From the NCBI RefSeq assembly GCF_030295325.1, contig NZ_AP027059.1, positions 1,794,637 to 1,858,636 on the forward strand: a DNA stretch of 64,000 nt, written 5' to 3'. The position numbers and the translations under genes are program-made. The notes beneath the pieces were generated by a model. The model saw nothing but the letters and a program-made list of their open reading frames with translations, was not told the DNA's origin and did not search any database. This stretch comes from Haliovirga abyssi. GTDB lineage: Bacteria; Fusobacteriota; Fusobacteriia; Fusobacteriales; Haliovirgaceae. This document shows positions 38,792-46,814 of this stretch, piece by piece; the stretch's first letter is position 1; each line of letters begins with the position of its first letter.

Positions 38792-39625
38792 TTACTTATT
38801 TTTTTCTAACTTTTTCATTCCTTCAATAGCTTTTTTGTTGGATAAAATTTTCATTTGTTCTATTGCAACTCTGTTAAGATTTATCAGTCTTTCTTTTTGA
38901 TTTAAACCAGCTTTTATATACTCAGAATTTAGGTTTTTGAGGTTCGCAAGAATAAGCAGTTGTTCAAGGCTTGCATAATCTCTTATATTTCCATCTTTAT
39001 CTGGATTTTTCTCTCTCCATTCTTTTGCTGTCATTGAAAAAAGAGCCATATTTAATAAATCAGCTTCATTCGCATAAGTAAAGCTTTGTTGTTGAGGAGT
39101 TAAATCTTTGGGAATTAAATTTTCTTTTATTGAATCCGTATGAATTCTATAATTAATTTTTGCTAAAGTTCTACTTACATCCCATTCGATATTTTTTCTG
39201 CTATTTTCTTCATCGATTAATCTTTGAAACTCTTTTATTAGATAAAGTTTAAACTCTGCTGATACCCAAGAAGCAAATTCAAAAGCAATATCTTTATGGG
39301 CAAAAGTTCCTCCATACCTTCCACTACTTGTTGTTATTCCAATTGCATTTGTCCCTTCTATCCATTTTTTAGGAGACATAGTAAAAGCATTTCTGCCTGC
39401 TTCATTTTTAAACCCGTCGAATTCGACGGGTTTAAAATCACTATTATTTATTTTCTCCCAAAGACCTAAAAATTCAATTGTATCTTTACTTCTTAACCAA
39501 TTTTTTATAACATCATTTGGAGAATCACTTTTATACTTTGCAATATCAGTAAGTGATATATAATCAGATTGATTAGCCTTTTTTACAGATATTGAAATTC
39601 CTTTTACATCTACTTTTTTTGCCAT
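38792..39625 (-). CDS. KilA-N domain protein
   Basis: The 277 residues contain a KilA-N domain in the first half (ISLTDIAKYKSDSPNDVIKNWLRSKDTIEFLGLWEKIN...GRNAFTMSPKKWIEGTNAIGI, then GRYGGTFAHKDIAFEFASWVSAEFKLYLIKEFQRL). KilA-N proteins are common in phages and mobile elements and bind DNA. The C-terminal half is helical and ends in NKKAIEGMKKLEKNK. It follows the SEFIR gene by 40 bases, so the two form one operon and may be one functional unit. Its start has AGGAGG. A 32-bp perfect palindrome lies within it. Confidence 0.85.
   Translation of the reverse strand: MAKKVDVKGISISVKKANQSDYISLTDIAKYKSDSPNDVIKNWLRSKDTIEFLGLWEKINNSDFKPVEFDGFKNEAGRNAFTMSPKKWIEGTNAIGITTSSGRYGGTFAHKDIAFEFASWVSAEFKLYLIKEFQRLIDEENSRKNIEWDVSRTLAKINYRIHTDSIKENLIPKDLTPQQQSFTYANEADLLNMALFSMTAKEWREKNPDKDGNIRDYASLEQLLILANLKNLNSEYIKAGLNQKERLINLNRVAIEQMKILSNKKAIEGMKKLEKNK
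39406..39437. repeat. 32-bp perfect palindrome inside the KilA-N gene
   Basis: TTTTAAACCCGTCGAA and its exact reverse complement TTCGACGGGTTTAAAA are joined without a loop. The palindrome encodes FKPVEFDGFK of the KilA-N protein. Confidence 0.85.
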
Positions 39626-39665
39626 TTTACCTCCTGAATATCAAATTAAAATCTACTAATTCTTT

Positions 39666-40529
39666 TTATAAATTTGACTTATTAAAATCGTCTAATAGTT
39701 CTTCTAAATTACACTTAATATTGGCACAATTCTCCAAAATAAGTTTTGCTCTTTTTTTTATCACTTCATTTTCAGTTCCCATCCCAACATCATATGCTGT
39801 TTTTCCAAATAAATCGTAATTATCCCATCCACCATAGCCTGTTGCTTGCACATAATTACTATCTATAGAATCCAATATTTTAATTTGATTTATTTCTTCG
39901 AATTTTATAATAATCTTACCAAAATTATTTAGATGATACTTAACAATGAACTTTGCTATTAAATCCTCTTCTAATATTTTTAATATTTTACTGTAGACCT
40001 CCGAATCAAATAATCCTTTTTTTACTTTTTCATCTATGGAAATATTGTTGATTCTATCAGGTATTTCAATTTGTGTACTCAATTCAAATTTAGGTTTTTC
40101 AACAATTGGTTTCCCTTCAATCGCGTTAATAAATTCGTTTAACTTTTCATCATTTAAATCAAAACTTGGATTAAGTTCTATTCCAAATATAGATTCCATA
40201 TAATCTGGTTTAACGCTTATTCCTTCTAAAAATACAGGTATAAATTTTTCTTGTTTAGTATTTCTATATACTTTTGGGCTAATAATTGAAGTTTCTACTC
40301 CAACGCCACTAATTCTATTATTAGCTTTATTTACATACTCTTTCTCGCATATAACGAATACTTTTTCAGCTTCTCTTATAGAATTTTCCATAAAAGAATC
40401 TATGTTATGTCCAGGTCTTATTTCCCATTTATCTAAAATAACATCATATTTGCTTGATAATTTAGTTGCCAAATCTATTACCAATTGATCATAACGTTCC
40501 CAACAATATGATAAGAATATTTTTTTCAT
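39666..40529 (-). CDS. SEFIR/TIR-like domain protein, probable defence effector or sensor
   Basis: From the ATG at 40529 (AAGGAAG upstream) the protein has 287 residues. The first 150 match the SEFIR/TIR group: box 1 KKIFLSYCWERYDQ, VILDKWEIRPGHNIDSFMENSIREAEKVFVICEKEYVNKANNR, GVGVETSIISPKVYRN and KFIPVFLEG. The last 130 residues are helical or mixed and unrecognised (NLEELLDDFNKSNL at the end). SEFIR proteins in bacteria often act in phage defence, for instance by NAD depletion. An in-frame stretch back to 40685 has no ribosome site and is probably not translated. The KilA-N gene follows. Confidence 0.75.
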   Translation of the reverse strand: MKKIFLSYCWERYDQLVIDLATKLSSKYDVILDKWEIRPGHNIDSFMENSIREAEKVFVICEKEYVNKANNRISGVGVETSIISPKVYRNTKQEKFIPVFLEGISVKPDYMESIFGIELNPSFDLNDEKLNEFINAIEGKPIVEKPKFELSTQIEIPDRINNISIDEKVKKGLFDSEVYSKILKILEEDLIAKFIVKYHLNNFGKIIIKFEEINQIKILDSIDSNYVQATGYGGWDNYDLFGKTAYDVGMGTENEVIKKRAKLILENCANIKCNLEELLDDFNKSNL

Positions 40530-40742
40530 AAAATCACTTCCTTCACTAAAATATTTTGTAGATGTTACTTCTATACTTAGACGGATACGATGTCCGTCGA
40601 GAACAATATTTTGAGATTTAGGATTAATTCGCAGTATATCTCTTACGATATTTTTTATTCTCTTTGGGTCATAATAGACTTCCATTAGGAAAATAACCTA
40701 GTCTGAATATGTGTCATAACTCCGTGGCGGGTAAACGATGGG

Positions 40743-40800
40743 CGTTAGCCAAGATTGGGGGAGTTCGACACCCACCCGCACTCAACAATCTTGGCTAACG
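40743..40800. repeat. 15-bp perfect inverted repeat beside the attC-like site
   Basis: CGTTAGCCAAGATTG (40743-40757) and CAATCTTGGCTAACG (40786-40800) are exact inverted copies with a 28-base GC-rich loop. The right arm shares GCTAAC with the attC-like site at 40794-40921. The stretch 40530-40742 has no supported gene. Confidence 0.7.
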
Positions 40801-40921
40801 TGTTCACTGCATGCAATGTCCCAAAGCCGTACAACAAGGAAATGAACCTTAGAGCTTGCTCTTGGTAAATGACGCCGTAACTCGGTAGGGGATGGAATAT
40901 CCGTATGTGCAGAGTGTTAGC
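40794..40921. other. attC-like recombination site B
   Basis: The 128-bp imperfect palindrome runs from GCTAAC to GTTAGC. The left arm is TAACGTGTTCACTGCATGC and the reverse complement of the right arm is TAACACTCTGCACATACG, so the left arm has extra unpaired bases, as at the other two sites. It is markedly GC-richer than the flanks. It overlaps the stop codon of the Cap15-like gene by a few bases, as attC sites often do. Confidence 0.5.
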
Positions 40922-41450
40922 TGATCGTTGATTCAAATTCAATATCTCCAAGTGTTTTTCTATCAGTAAAATATTGACCGGTAAGTCGATCTCTATTTTC
41001 GATTTTTAAGCGACAAATTCCATAATGAATTTCACTCCTATTCCGTACATTTGCATTAGGAGTATTCAGATAATAGTATACTAAAAATTTTTCTCCATAT
41101 TCTGTGTAAATTTTACTCATTATTGCTTTGCTTTCACTTTCATCAGTTTTTAAATATATTTGTATGGCAAACAAATTTTGAACAATTCTTATTTTTGCTT
41201 CCCTTTTATTTCCATCAAATTCAGATATAAGAAAACCATCATACTCTTTATGTAATTTTGGGGTTTTACTTAGAGGATTAAACTTCCAAAAGAAGTGAAT
41301 ATAAGACATTGATAGCACTATTACTATCGAAATTGTTTTACCTATATTTTCAAGAATAGATTTATCGACAAACATTTTATCTACTAAAAGATAAATAATT
41401 ATTGATATAATTATAATACTTTTTATATACCATTTTAGATTTTCTTCCAT
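40917..41450 (-). CDS. cap15: CBASS effector, Cap15-like (two membrane helices plus beta-rich domain)
   Basis: From the ATG at 41450 (GGAGGGAGGT upstream) the protein has 177 residues. Two membrane helices (about 8-24 and 34-54) precede a beta-rich domain (about 66-177: GFLISEFDGNKREAKIRIVQNLFAIQIYLKTDESES... GICRLKIENRDRLTGQYFTDRKT). This is the architecture of the Cap15 effector, in which a beta-barrel binds a cyclic nucleotide and the helices disrupt the inner membrane. The upstream nucleotidyltransferase gene ends 13 bases before this start, which supports the pairing. Confidence 0.78.
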   Translation of the reverse strand: MEENLKWYIKSIIIISIIIYLLVDKMFVDKSILENIGKTISIVIVLSMSYIHFFWKFNPLSKTPKLHKEYDGFLISEFDGNKREAKIRIVQNLFAIQIYLKTDESESKAIMSKIYTEYGEKFLVYYYLNTPNANVRNRSEIHYGICRLKIENRDRLTGQYFTDRKTLGDIEFESTIS

Positions 41451-41463
41451 GATACCTCCCTCC

Positions 41464-42426
41464 TTATATTTCAATTTCAAAATATTCGTTTATTTCCTTG
41501 ATAAATTTTTTATATTTATTAACCATTTCTTCATTACTAAATAAGACTTTTATTCCATTTACCTCCTTAAAAGTACCTAACATAAAGTTATTATTATTCA
41601 AATATATCAAAATATCATCAAAAGTATACTTTAATAAAGAATATTTACTAAATAAGTCATTTGGAAGATTCCATAACAGTGACTCCAATCCAAATGACGA
41701 AACCTGCTCTACTGATTTATAGCCATCTTCTTTCATTAAATTTCTTATTTTTTTTAAAATTCTTACATGTTTTTTAAAATAATAATTTGTTTTATTATTC
41801 TTTTCTTTCCCATTTATTATATGCTGTTCAGGATAATTCCTTATTCTTCCACCACTATCAGGTCTAATCTCAATTCCACCAATATAATTTGAAGAATCAA
41901 AGTTATAATCATCTTTATAATTTCTTAGACGATATGCTGGAACCACATCAGCATCAACTCTATAGCTATTGCCAATAACTTTCAAAGATTTATCATTCCT
42001 TATAACACCTTGATTATTAAATTTTAAATTTAAAGCTCTTTCTACATCATCCTTCAATTCTTTAGCCGAATAAGTTCCATCTGTGAAAAAATATTTTTCC
42101 CCCGTAATTCCTGCCCTATACTCAGGAATAAAGGTTGATTCCAAAATAACGGCCACATCTACATCACTATGACTTCTAATATTCGTATTGTTTGCATAAG
42201 AACCTTGTATAAGAATTCTCAATTTTTTACTATAGTCACTAGTATTCATATCTAGTGTATAAGAAAATGTATCCTCACTATATTTTTTTATAACTTCACT
42301 ATTGTCTAAATACCCTGATAGTTTCATAGCATCTCTAACCATTTTTATGGCATTTTTACACTTTTCATCTTCAGTTTGACTTAATGGTAGTGCGAATTTT
42401 TTCAATAATTCTTCATCAAATTTCAT
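41464..42426 (-). CDS. CBASS CD-NTase (cGAS/DncV-like nucleotidyltransferase)
   Basis: The 320 residues contain the nucleotidyltransferase motif GSYANNTNIRSHSDVDVAV (75-93) with catalytic D88 and D90, and the third acid in YRVDADVVPAYRLRNY (about 158-160). The helical C-terminal half (HIINGKEKNNKTNYYFKKHVRILKKIRNLMKEDG) is the SMODS layout. On sensing phage it would make a cyclic oligonucleotide that activates the adjacent Cap15-like protein. No Cap2/Cap3 or HORMA genes are present, so this is a minimal (type I) CBASS. The start has AGGAGG. Confidence 0.9.
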   Translation of the reverse strand: MKFDEELLKKFALPLSQTEDEKCKNAIKMVRDAMKLSGYLDNSEVIKKYSEDTFSYTLDMNTSDYSKKLRILIQGSYANNTNIRSHSDVDVAVILESTFIPEYRAGITGEKYFFTDGTYSAKELKDDVERALNLKFNNQGVIRNDKSLKVIGNSYRVDADVVPAYRLRNYKDDYNFDSSNYIGGIEIRPDSGGRIRNYPEQHIINGKEKNNKTNYYFKKHVRILKKIRNLMKEDGYKSVEQVSSFGLESLLWNLPNDLFSKYSLLKYTFDDILIYLNNNNFMLGTFKEVNGIKVLFSNEEMVNKYKKFIKEINEYFEIEI

Positions 42427-42456
42427 TTTTACTTTCCTCCTAAGCTTAAAATGTCA

Positions 42457-42594
42457 GCTAACGGTTCCAGTGTATGCGATGTGAATTGAGGCATTAGAGT
42501 GGTGCAGCCTGAGGCTCGTGAGCTTGCAAACCTCCGAAGCAAACCACGTCCCATAAGGGCTTGCCGAAATCATATCGTATACACTGTGTTATAC
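42457..42594. other. attC-like recombination site C
   Basis: The 138-bp imperfect palindrome runs from GCTAAC to GTTATAC. CAGTGTATGCGAT (42468-42480) pairs with ATCGTATACACTG (42574-42586) with one mismatch, after an unpaired GTTC-type insert on the left. The centre is a second, longer GC-rich stem region. It lies between the large nuclease-like gene and the CBASS genes, where the attC of the large-gene cassette is expected. Confidence 0.6.
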
Positions 42595-42699: not shown

Positions 42700-45600
42700 T
42701 TAATCACCCCAATGTTCTAATTGAGCATATTCCAGATTTGACTCTTTTTCATAGAATTCTGCTAGTTTTTTTAAAAGTTTTTTTGTTTTGCTATGTAGAG
42801 GATTTATCTTTAAACTATTATTTTTGTATTCTTCAGCAATTGCTCTCTCTTCATTTCCAGCATCATAAATATTTTTATGTGATACTCTAATTCCATTAGG
42901 ATATATTTTTCCATGTAAAATTCCATCAAATAATTCTTTACAATAGTATTTTTCTAAAACATCTCTGATAACTTCATGTGGCCACACTTCATCAGAGCCT
43001 TTGGGTGATTTTGATAACATTTGTCCTATTATAGTGTAGACAGATTTAGTGTAATTATGATCTTTAGAAAATTTTGTTACATATTCAAGCCAACTTAAAA
43101 GAGTATTTTGTTCTATAGAATCATTTAGATTAATATTAAACTTCCAGATATCAAAAAATTCTTTTATATTTAGATAGATTTGTATGTTATTATCCAATTT
43201 TTTAAAATAATTTCCATCATCATCTCTAAATCCCATTTTCAATATTTCAATAAAAAATTCTGGATTAGTAATAATTTCTTTATTTAAAATTTCCGGATTT
43301 ACATCAATATATCTAAATATTTTTAAATAGTTCCATTCTAAAATCATTAATTTGTTTTTATCATAATCATTTTTGTTATATACATATTTAAATAATTCTC
43401 CAAAATTGTAACTAGAAATAGTTTTTTTTTGAGAAGTTAAATATCCTTCTAAAGCTAATACAATAAGATTTGATGGTATATCTTTATTCCTATAACATTC
43501 ATGATATATAAAATTTATTGCTTTTACATAATGTTTATAGTACATTAGTTTTTCAATTAATTTGATAGCAACTTTTGATTCATTTGTTCTAAATTCAGCT
43601 TGCAGTTCAAAGTATAATTTTTCAATTTCTATATTTAAAGATAAAAAGTCTAATAATTCACTAGTAATATCTTCATATTGTAGCAACATAACTTTATTTT
43701 CATTACTTAATAGAGCTGTATTATTTAAGAAATTAACAATTATTGACACTCCTTTTTCACTAACAAAATATCGAACAAATCCATGTATAACTCTATATTT
43801 TTTTAAGTCTAATAATTTTAGAATAAATTCTTTATCAATGTTGTCAAAAAATAACTCACCACAATAATATCCAATATGAAAAAGTGAACTAGAGTCAGAT
43901 TTTTTTATTAAATCAAAAATTAGACTTCTATCTTTATTAGCAATTTCTACTAAAGCTTCACATCTTAATTTTTTTGCCTTACTTCTTGAGACTTCCCAAT
44001 TTTCTTCATCTTGAAACAAATTATATTCACTATTTTGAAATAACCAAAGATTTTTTAAAATAATATCTTCAATAATTATATGATCTTTTAGTTCTGTTAA
44101 TTTATCTAAATAATTACCTTTTATGGCCCAGTAAGTATTTTTAAATCTAATATGTCTGTTTATTTCTTGTTCTATTTCTACTTTTAAAAGTTGTAATTTA
44201 TCTTCACTTAAATTTTTAGTATAAGAATAAATACTGGATAATACTAAATCTTTAAGATTATTAGGTAAATTAGAATAGTCAGATATTAAATCAAAACAAC
44301 ATTCAACATTGAATATATTATTACACTTAAGTTCAATTATTCTTTCAGTTTGTATTAAAATTTCTTTGTTATTATGATATTCTCTTTTCTCTAATCCCCA
44401 TTCTCTATAAATAGGAGAACTATTAGGAAATAAAACTGCATGAGGTTTTGGTAATATGTTAGTTACTAATCTCCAAGCCTTTTGAGCATCTTTTTTAAAA
44501 AAACTCTCAATAGCTGCTAAACGAAATTTATACTCAACAATTGTTTGAGGCCAGTATAAATTAAAAATATTTTCTAGTGAACGCATAGGATTATTATTAT
44601 TATAGTCAATAGTGAAACAATCTACCAATTCAAACAGAATATTAACACAATCAGAAAAATATTCCTCATTCCATACCAATTTTTCAATTCCCCATAAAAT
44701 AGACATATATGATTTATCTCCACCATAAAAACTGTCTACAGGTTTAAATAGAGATAAAAAATCTTCATTATCTCTATTATTTAAAATAAAATCAACTACG
44801 ATATCAGGAGAAATCTCTGATAAAATTTCAAAATTTTCTATAAAAGTCTGCAATTTCTGTTTGCTATCAATATTTTTTATAATATTTTTAATAGAATAAT
44901 CAATTTTTAATTGATAACTATCATTTATACATACCAAAGTTGTAATACTTTTCAACATTTCATTTTTTAAATTAGAAGAAAAATCAGTAGTTTTATTGTA
45001 TAGTTGCCAAAATTGTTGTTTGCCTTCTTCTAACTCAAACTTTGGATTAGTTACTTTCATAATTTCTTCAAATTGTTCTATAAAAATTTCAAATTTTGAA
45101 GAATCAATTTTATTATGCAATTTATACCATAATTCCTTATAATTTGTAATTTTCCAAATTGAGTTAATTTTTTTTATCGGAGGATCAACTTCGTAAGTCC
45201 AATTAAGCAGTTTATTAATATACTCTGAATATTTTTCGTTAGATATTTTTTCTATAATTTCTTTATCTTTTACATTTTCATCATTCCAACATCCGACTAG
45301 TAATGCAGGGAGTAATTCTACTAAATTAGGCTTTTTAATCCAATCTGATTCTTTCAATAGCTGATTTTTTGAAGAAAGTCTGATCAATCTAAATATGCTC
45401 CCTTTCATTTCTCTCTCAAGCTCATATTTCTTATTTGAATCAATTTGAATATTTCTTAATTCTTCTGAAATTTTACCTCTATTGATAAATGATAATTCTA
45501 TTCCCTTATCAATACTACCTTTGTACTCCTTTCCAAATGTAAATAATTGTTTATTGTTAGAGTTCGTAATTGGTGAGGTAAAATCATAATATGTTATTAA

Positions 45601-46413
45601 ATAGTGATTTTTCAAGTGTTTAGAAGTTAAATCCCAATCTTCTTCACTTTTTACAATTAATGTTTTTGAAATAATATTATCCTTTTTGTCACTTTCTAAT
45701 TTTTTAACAACTGCAATAAATGATAGTATCGCTTCTTCTTTTGATTCTCCAATAATATTTAAGAATGGCTTGTCATTTTCTATCCAAATTTTAATTAATT
45801 TCTCTTCTTTTTCTCTACCTGCTAAAATCATATTTGATGTTATTTCAAATTCTGTTTCTCCAACAAATTTATCCCAAAATTCATTTATACTTAAGAAATT
45901 ATCAATTTGTAGTTTATGTATCATTCCTTTTAACCACTTTGAAATTACAGGAAATAACTCTAACCATTCTTCTAAATCACATGCATCATAAATTTTAATA
46001 TCTTTCCATATACCATCTTTTTTCTTTTCGTTAATCCAATCATTCTTTGTAGTAAATAGTCTAGGAGTAACAAAAATAAAAGTTGAATTACTTTTATCAA
46101 TTCCTAAATCTTGTTCAGAACGTTTAGAGTAATCACTTTCAAGTTTTAATTTCACATTTTTATTTGTTCCGATTTCCCATATAGAAATTCCTTTTGGGAT
46201 ATATTTCTTATTATTTTCAACTTCAACAAATCCATCCAATCCTGAATACTGAACACTATCTCCACTTGGAAATCTAGAATATTTTATTTCGTTATTACCA
46301 TAAGAAGCATATATAAGTTTTTTTACTAAAGTTGGACATTCCTGTTGAGATTCTTTAGAATTTGTTTCTGACCATAATTTTAAGTCATTTGTAGTTATCC
46401 ATTTAAAATCCAT
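42700..46413 (-). CDS. Large protein with nuclease-like N-terminus and degenerate P-loop, candidate defence protein
   Basis: From the ATG at 46413 (AAGGAGG upstream) the protein has 1237 residues; a longer frame to 46536 lacks a ribosome site. Residues 1-165 resemble a PD-(D/E)XK-like module found at the head of large uncharacterised proteins: GDSVQYSGLDGFVEV (D60), YIPKGISIWEIGTN (E80), DYSKR, STFIFVTPRLF and YDACDLEEWLELFPVISKW. Near 212-235 a degenerate P-loop (FLNIIGESKEEAIL) stands where a STAND ATPase would have GxxGxGK. The remaining 900 residues are helical and HEAT-like. It sits alone between a decayed gene and an attC-like site. Confidence 0.7.
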   Translation of the reverse strand: MDFKWITTNDLKLWSETNSKESQQECPTLVKKLIYASYGNNEIKYSRFPSGDSVQYSGLDGFVEVENNKKYIPKGISIWEIGTNKNVKLKLESDYSKRSEQDLGIDKSNSTFIFVTPRLFTTKNDWINEKKKDGIWKDIKIYDACDLEEWLELFPVISKWLKGMIHKLQIDNFLSINEFWDKFVGETEFEITSNMILAGREKEEKLIKIWIENDKPFLNIIGESKEEAILSFIAVVKKLESDKKDNIISKTLIVKSEEDWDLTSKHLKNHYLITYYDFTSPITNSNNKQLFTFGKEYKGSIDKGIELSFINRGKISEELRNIQIDSNKKYELEREMKGSIFRLIRLSSKNQLLKESDWIKKPNLVELLPALLVGCWNDENVKDKEIIEKISNEKYSEYINKLLNWTYEVDPPIKKINSIWKITNYKELWYKLHNKIDSSKFEIFIEQFEEIMKVTNPKFELEEGKQQFWQLYNKTTDFSSNLKNEMLKSITTLVCINDSYQLKIDYSIKNIIKNIDSKQKLQTFIENFEILSEISPDIVVDFILNNRDNEDFLSLFKPVDSFYGGDKSYMSILWGIEKLVWNEEYFSDCVNILFELVDCFTIDYNNNNPMRSLENIFNLYWPQTIVEYKFRLAAIESFFKKDAQKAWRLVTNILPKPHAVLFPNSSPIYREWGLEKREYHNNKEILIQTERIIELKCNNIFNVECCFDLISDYSNLPNNLKDLVLSSIYSYTKNLSEDKLQLLKVEIEQEINRHIRFKNTYWAIKGNYLDKLTELKDHIIIEDIILKNLWLFQNSEYNLFQDEENWEVSRSKAKKLRCEALVEIANKDRSLIFDLIKKSDSSSLFHIGYYCGELFFDNIDKEFILKLLDLKKYRVIHGFVRYFVSEKGVSIIVNFLNNTALLSNENKVMLLQYEDITSELLDFLSLNIEIEKLYFELQAEFRTNESKVAIKLIEKLMYYKHYVKAINFIYHECYRNKDIPSNLIVLALEGYLTSQKKTISSYNFGELFKYVYNKNDYDKNKLMILEWNYLKIFRYIDVNPEILNKEIITNPEFFIEILKMGFRDDDGNYFKKLDNNIQIYLNIKEFFDIWKFNINLNDSIEQNTLLSWLEYVTKFSKDHNYTKSVYTIIGQMLSKSPKGSDEVWPHEVIRDVLEKYYCKELFDGILHGKIYPNGIRVSHKNIYDAGNEERAIAEEYKNNSLKINPLHSKTKKLLKKLAEFYEKESNLEYAQLEHWGD

Positions 46414-46601
46414 AGCAAACCTCCTTGAACAATCTAAAATTTCTTTATAAAAGGCGGTATAGGAAGTACCGCTGACTAAAATAAAAAAATGGGATTGATT
46501 TTTATTCAAATATCTAAAGTATAAACCTGCTTGCATATAACTCGTTTATACACGCATAAAACCTTCGCATATCCCTCCATATAGTTCGTATATACGCAAA
46601 T

Positions 46602-46814
46602 CTATCCATCTTCAAATAAATATTTTTTTGATTTATATATCTTTTTATACTCTTCTAGTTTTATTAAAAACTGTTTTGATCAAGCTACCACTCCGTCTTT
46701 ATTCCAATTAAATTCTACTATATTTATTCATCCTATGTCAATATTTATATTCATTATCTTTATGTTTTCCAATTCTAAATCCCGTGATAATTTTACGGCA
46801 TTTCCATATAAGTT
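46602..46814 (-). pseudogene. Decayed protein gene with two internal TGA codons
   Basis: One frame reads NLYGNAVKLSRDLELENIK, then two separate TGA codons, then EFNWNKDG and SKQFLIKLEEYKKIYK, and ends with TAG at 46602. It has protein-like composition but no start codon. TGA is used as a normal stop elsewhere in the window, so this is a remnant and not recoding. It may be a dead cassette upstream of the large gene. The rest of 46414-46938 holds a hairpin (GCGGTA/TACCGC, 46454-46472) and a degenerate TAGGAACG repeat (about 46840-46915). Confidence 0.5.

Follow-up and report, generated by a model that had tools for sequence, protein, structure and literature searches.

A candidate single-gene anti-phage family with a nuclease-like head and a STAND-type fold that lacks Walker motifs

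The window, a 64,000-nucleotide stretch of the Haliovirga abyssi genome, encodes a protein of 1237 amino acids in which a nuclease-like head is followed by a STAND-type nucleotide-binding fold, then by a winged helix and a long HEAT-like solenoid. With slightly better than even confidence, it can be read as a single-gene anti-phage protein of the Avs/NLR-like kind, in which a nuclease effector and a phage sensor are combined with a hub that is not an ATPase.

The gene and its homologues

The gene occupies 42703..46413 of the window on the minus strand, as do all window features described below, and the reading frame is open on this strand only. The longest open reading frame, 46536..42700, would yield 1278 residues; the start at 46536 was rejected in favor of the ATG at 46413 because the latter is preceded by a ribosome-binding site, AGGAGG (46420..46425), and homologues begin at the same point. 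A terminator-like stem-loop (46454-46472) lies in the 5' leader directly ahead of the ribosome-binding site. Further upstream, a weak promoter-like TTGACA-18-TAGAAT matches at 11/12 positions (46712..46741), and such sites are overall as frequent in shuffled sequence.

Searches of Pfam, NCBIfam and PADLOC, the last inspected up to E=1, gave no significant match to the protein, and the family is absent from the releases of these collections that were searched. The sole matching profile is PHROG 18693, which is only a cluster of phage proteins and which the protein matches along its full length (7.6e-98). A scan of genome contigs with the single protein found no homologue. With an alignment of a subset of the family as query, 207 loci were confirmed among 84,980 species genomes, of which 80 were kept, and tblastn identified 22 plasmids. 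More than 80 full-length homologues, at ∼20-30% identity to the window protein, are spread across many bacterial phyla, including Proteobacteria, Firmicutes, Cyanobacteria, Actinobacteria, Bacteroidota, Chloroflexi and Nitrospirota, and occur on plasmids and in prophage-like contigs. In a sample of the organism's own phylum, three of 98 genomes have a match, this genome being one of the three.

Domain architecture

The head comprises residues 1-170 (45904..46413). An initial annotation had proposed that it is nuclease-like and had singled out G58-L-D60-G61, PKGISIWE with E80, DYSKR (94-98), FVTPR (114-118) and DACDLEEWLE (143-152), together with GESKEEA (222-228) behind the head. All of these motifs are present, and they are not chance occurrences, judging by an alignment of 74 sequences: G58, D60, G61, G75 and E80 are identical in 74/74, K90 and D143 in 73/74 each, T116 in 72/74 and D94 in 70/74. 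An AlphaFold2 (AF2) model of residues 1-460, built from the 74-sequence input (pLDDT 93.7, pTM 0.90; 88-98 within the head), has the restriction-endonuclease topology that the annotation predicted. The DSSP assignment runs helix 19-37, strands 43-47, 61-65 and 75-81, helix 87-100 and strand 110-115, which is the alpha-beta-beta-beta-alpha-beta order of PD-(D/E)XK enzymes; D60 starts the second strand and E80 ends the third, and both core acids are invariant.

In (D/E)xK nucleases, the second residue past the acid is normally the catalytic lysine. The corresponding position 82 is glycine in 63/74 sequences, the window protein among them, and serine in 10/74. The PD-(D/E)XK superfamily includes examples of relocated catalytic residues, and K90, in the helix next after E80, may stand in for the lysine. 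Profiles of nuclease families do not match the head at the sequence level, and the nuclease assignment therefore rests on topology and conservation. Profile searches against PDB sequences returned nothing significant, nor did a viral fold search, whose weak matches are clamp loaders and a few restriction or endonuclease I proteins.

Residues 195-345 (45379..45831) form the pseudo-NTPase, or NOD, domain. Among solved structures, Foldseek ranks Avs3 (8dgc, E 1.6e-07) and Avs4 (8dgf, 5.5e-06) at the top, followed by clamp loaders, Apaf-1, CED-4 and AVAST5; as modeled, the region is an Apaf-like nucleotide-binding fold. At the P-loop position, where GESKEEA stands in the window protein (45730..45750), none of the 74 aligned sequences contains the Walker A pattern GxxxxGK[ST]. 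The family consensus is roughly [AG]-[EDT]-[ST]-x-[ED]-[ED]-[AVG], in which residue 227 is always acidic (E in 68/74, D in 6/74) and residue 228 is small or hydrophobic, and never lysine, across the alignment. The Walker B position likewise carries no conserved acid in the 74 sequences. Read from this alignment, the loss of Walker A is a family-wide trait, which extends the earlier remark that the motif in this protein lacks its lysine.

P-loop mutation abolishes immunity in other STAND immune receptors that have been tested. The same is true of PaAvs5, in which alanine at the glycine or at the lysine of Walker A is sufficient (PMC12931631). Since PaAvs5 needs each of these residues, the loss of both is unexpected in a working switch; with the essential pair replaced, the family resembles a naturally occurring double mutant, one with a conserved motif of its own. 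With Walker A lost throughout the family, activation would have to go another way.

The remainder of the protein consists of a winged helix with the helices that follow it (residues 350-460; 45034..45366) and a HEAT-like alpha-solenoid (residues 461-1237; 42703..45033), the putative sensor. The AF2 model of residues 330-1237 has a pLDDT of 90.2, and the distant Foldseek matches of the solenoid are DNA-bound FANCD2, karyopherins and a condensin subunit. The long helical array of the initial annotation is this alpha-solenoid, and the sensor-like architecture that it described is recovered in the models.

The winged helix and solenoid constitute a shared body that is found behind different heads, often without any NTPase fold. 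In a prophage-type form of Escherichia coli, which is rare (8/5,426 E. coli genomes), the body follows a TDD..QIK head in a protein of 1182 aa that lacks the NTPase fold; the gene lies at L020:7170-10718 and is also present in L021-L024 and L030. Two loci from genomes of the cyanobacterial phylum (L139 and L140) carry a nuclease-like head of the TDD..QIK type, L138 has possible membrane helices ahead of a retained degenerate NTPase fold, and L017, from the same phylum as the window, has yet another head. In L015, L025 and L027 the body has no head (922-932 aa) and a small gene directly precedes it. Such swapping of heads on a common body is typical of effector and sensor modules.

Relationship to known defense systems

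STAND proteins of the Avs/AVAST type are triggered by conserved phage proteins, such as the terminase and the portal, and the structures of Avs3 (8dgc) and Avs4 (8dgf) were solved with phage terminase/portal. Their architecture of an effector head, a STAND NTPase fold and a repeat sensor is found in the models of the window protein, which shares with Avs3 and Avs4 a nuclease-like head at the N-terminus, a fold of the STAND type and a long helical sensor, and has them as its best structural matches. In contrast with Avs3 and Avs4, the family lacks Walker A and Walker B, its sensor is a HEAT-like solenoid, and the curated Avs profiles of PADLOC do not match the window protein up to E=1.

A second relative is PD-lambda-4_A (PADLOC PDLC03991; Vassallo et al. 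2022, PMC9519451). Alignment by hhalign reveals collinear homology over residues 25-338 (1.5e-07) and over the solenoid (2.7e-06), and pairs GESKEEA with GASGLGKS, so that A228 falls on the lysine and E227 on the glycine before it. The PD-lambda-4_A-like proteins retain an intact Walker A and a QCK head motif, read by eye as GGEDG...QCK in the two examples, where the window protein reads GESKEEA and EIG. The PADLOC PD-Lambda-4_A profile does not match the window protein, and two homologues reach only ∼9e-05. Two Rhizobium plasmids carry a PD-lambda-4_A gene immediately downstream of the homologue (PADLOC 8e-66 and 1e-60). The collinear homology spans the head, the NTPase fold and the solenoid, and the family is best seen as an ATPase-less relative of PD-lambda-4_A-type proteins. 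Gifsy GiPD474 is unrelated.

The third connection is to GAPS6 (GapS6a/GapS6b; NCBIfam NF047935/NF047936), a system reportedly described by Mahata et al. in 2024. The small gene before the head-less body is of the GapS6a type in L015, L025 and L027; for L025, the profile match is shown (NF047935, 5.2e-40, above cut-off). The head-less body was rejected as GapS6b, as NF047936 has no match in the records of these three loci, and the window protein has no significant NCBIfam match. These loci (L025:745-3905, L015 and L027) hold a GapS6a-family gene followed by the head-less body where GapS6b is expected, a possible new partner of GapS6a.

Proposed mechanism

In the mechanism that we infer, the C-terminal solenoid would recognize a phage molecule. 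The signal would then travel through the STAND-derived fold and winged helix by a conformational change or assembly that, with both Walker motifs lost, would not use a nucleotide. The PD-(D/E)XK-like head, through D60, E80 and probably K90, would then degrade DNA and thereby stop the infection.

An unlikely alternative is a DNA-sensing enzyme of the restriction type, in which foreign or modified DNA would be bound by the solenoid itself and cut by the head, and neither a receptor switch nor an oligomer would be involved. Such an enzyme does not need ATP, DNA-bound FANCD2 and a condensin subunit are among the best fold matches of the solenoid, and restriction genes lie near homologues. However, HEAT folds in general give karyopherin-type matches, and the same body is found with partners that are not nucleases, such as GapS6a and a possible transmembrane head.

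Slightly less probable still is a pseudoenzyme scaffold or regulator, in which neither the head nor the NTPase fold is catalytically active and the protein holds or represses other factors. The protein has neither the ExK lysine nor Walker A, and 50 of 73 non-redundant homologues carry an N-terminal extension of 70-234 aa that is an XRE-type helix-turn-helix (HTH_3) in those extended members that were scanned. Yet D60, E80 and K90 are conserved as strictly as the residues of an active site, and the extension is absent from 23/73 members and from the window protein.

Genomic context

Genes next to the homologues are oriented at random (upstream, 44 minus and 35 plus; downstream, 39 plus and 36 minus), so the gene usually stands alone, in agreement with the single-gene organization suggested at the outset. 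The neighborhoods do contain defense genes. The 127 immediate neighbors matched 101 PADLOC models at 1e-10, a figure that counts models, not genes, and is inflated by their redundancy, as compared with 12 models for 127 genes of matched length sampled far from these loci in the same genome set. The control matches are mostly to models, for example those for cysteine desulfurase and MotB, that resemble ordinary genes. Among the best 25 of the 101 models, AbiEi ranks first (9 genes), and a type I methyltransferase and Old are included. Since the models are redundant and 25 of the 101 are listed, the enrichment is one of kind rather than of gene count, and most neighboring genes have no PADLOC match.

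AbiEi and AbiEii genes are located divergently upstream of the homologue in ∼17-20 loci. In L001, L009, L012 and other alphaproteobacterial loci, the divergent pair lies upstream of the HTH-fused form, and the helix-turn-helix might control AbiEi/AbiEii and its own gene alike. The frequent plasmid location and the proximity of divergent AbiE toxin-antitoxin genes would also suit a function in toxin-antitoxin action or plasmid maintenance instead of phage defense. This is marginally less probable again than the scaffold: AbiE itself acts by abortive infection, many members stand alone on chromosomal contigs, and the relatives PD-lambda-4 and GapS6a are components of defense systems. Anti-phage defense is the function that we infer for the family.

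Downstream of the gene in the window, and sharing its strand, lie a CBASS CD-NTase (41464..42426; PADLOC Cyclase, 1.2e-99), the CBASS effector Cap15/2TM (40917..41480; Pfam PF18153, 8.3e-22; PADLOC, 3e-44), a bSEFIR/TIR protein (39666..40685; PADLOC bSEFIR, 1.1e-53) and a KilA-N protein, the PADLOC candidate PDC-S22 (38792..39625; 3.6e-133). The last two (38792-40685), downstream of the CBASS pair, form a small defense island adjoining adhE.

Two GC-rich, attC-like hairpins, assigned by pattern match, frame the CD-NTase/Cap15 pair. One (42456..42594) lies between the gene and the pair, and the 5' box of the other (40793..40922) contains the TAA stop codon of Cap15. Both have a GC fraction of ∼0.50 in surrounding DNA of 0.26, and their matching ends are TAACA...TG and ...GYANNCANTGNNNNCGTTAG. 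Genome-wide, the hairpin pattern has exactly two occurrences and its reversed control none; as the pattern was derived from the two elements themselves, this establishes their uniqueness in the genome but not their identity as attC sites. The element at 42456-42594 is not repeated in the rest of the window, nothing similar turned up in the plasmids or viral contigs searched, and an Rfam search gave no match. A simple scan for TAAC..GTTA hairpins is not discriminating in this AT-rich DNA. The sequence suggests candidate attC-like elements of integron-type gene cassettes without a recognized integrase, as no integron integrase scored above cut-off. The second element is followed directly by an inverted repeat of 15 bp without mismatches, CGTTAGCCAAGATTG...CAATCTTGGCTAACG (40740-40800). 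That the gene is an accessory of the adjoining CBASS system is very improbable: it shares the strand of the CD-NTase and lies 273 bp upstream of it, but an attC-like element stands between them and the annotated plasmid loci of homologues that were examined have no adjacent CBASS gene.

Perspectives

More broadly, and at somewhat less than even confidence, the family may represent a widespread lineage of bacterial NLR-like receptors that works without a nucleotide switch. The STAND fold would serve as a structural hub with a new conserved acidic motif at the P-loop site, sister forms would have deleted the fold, and the same winged-helix/solenoid sensor would drive several effectors, fused or in trans. 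Because the family is missing from the PADLOC, Pfam and NCBIfam releases searched and its effector heads are exchangeable, further uncatalogued defense systems may sit within it. A family with a replaced P-loop provides a natural system for asking what the ATPase does. If the reading is true, ligand sensing can activate an effector without a nucleotide switch, in a broad family that nonetheless keeps the STAND fold.
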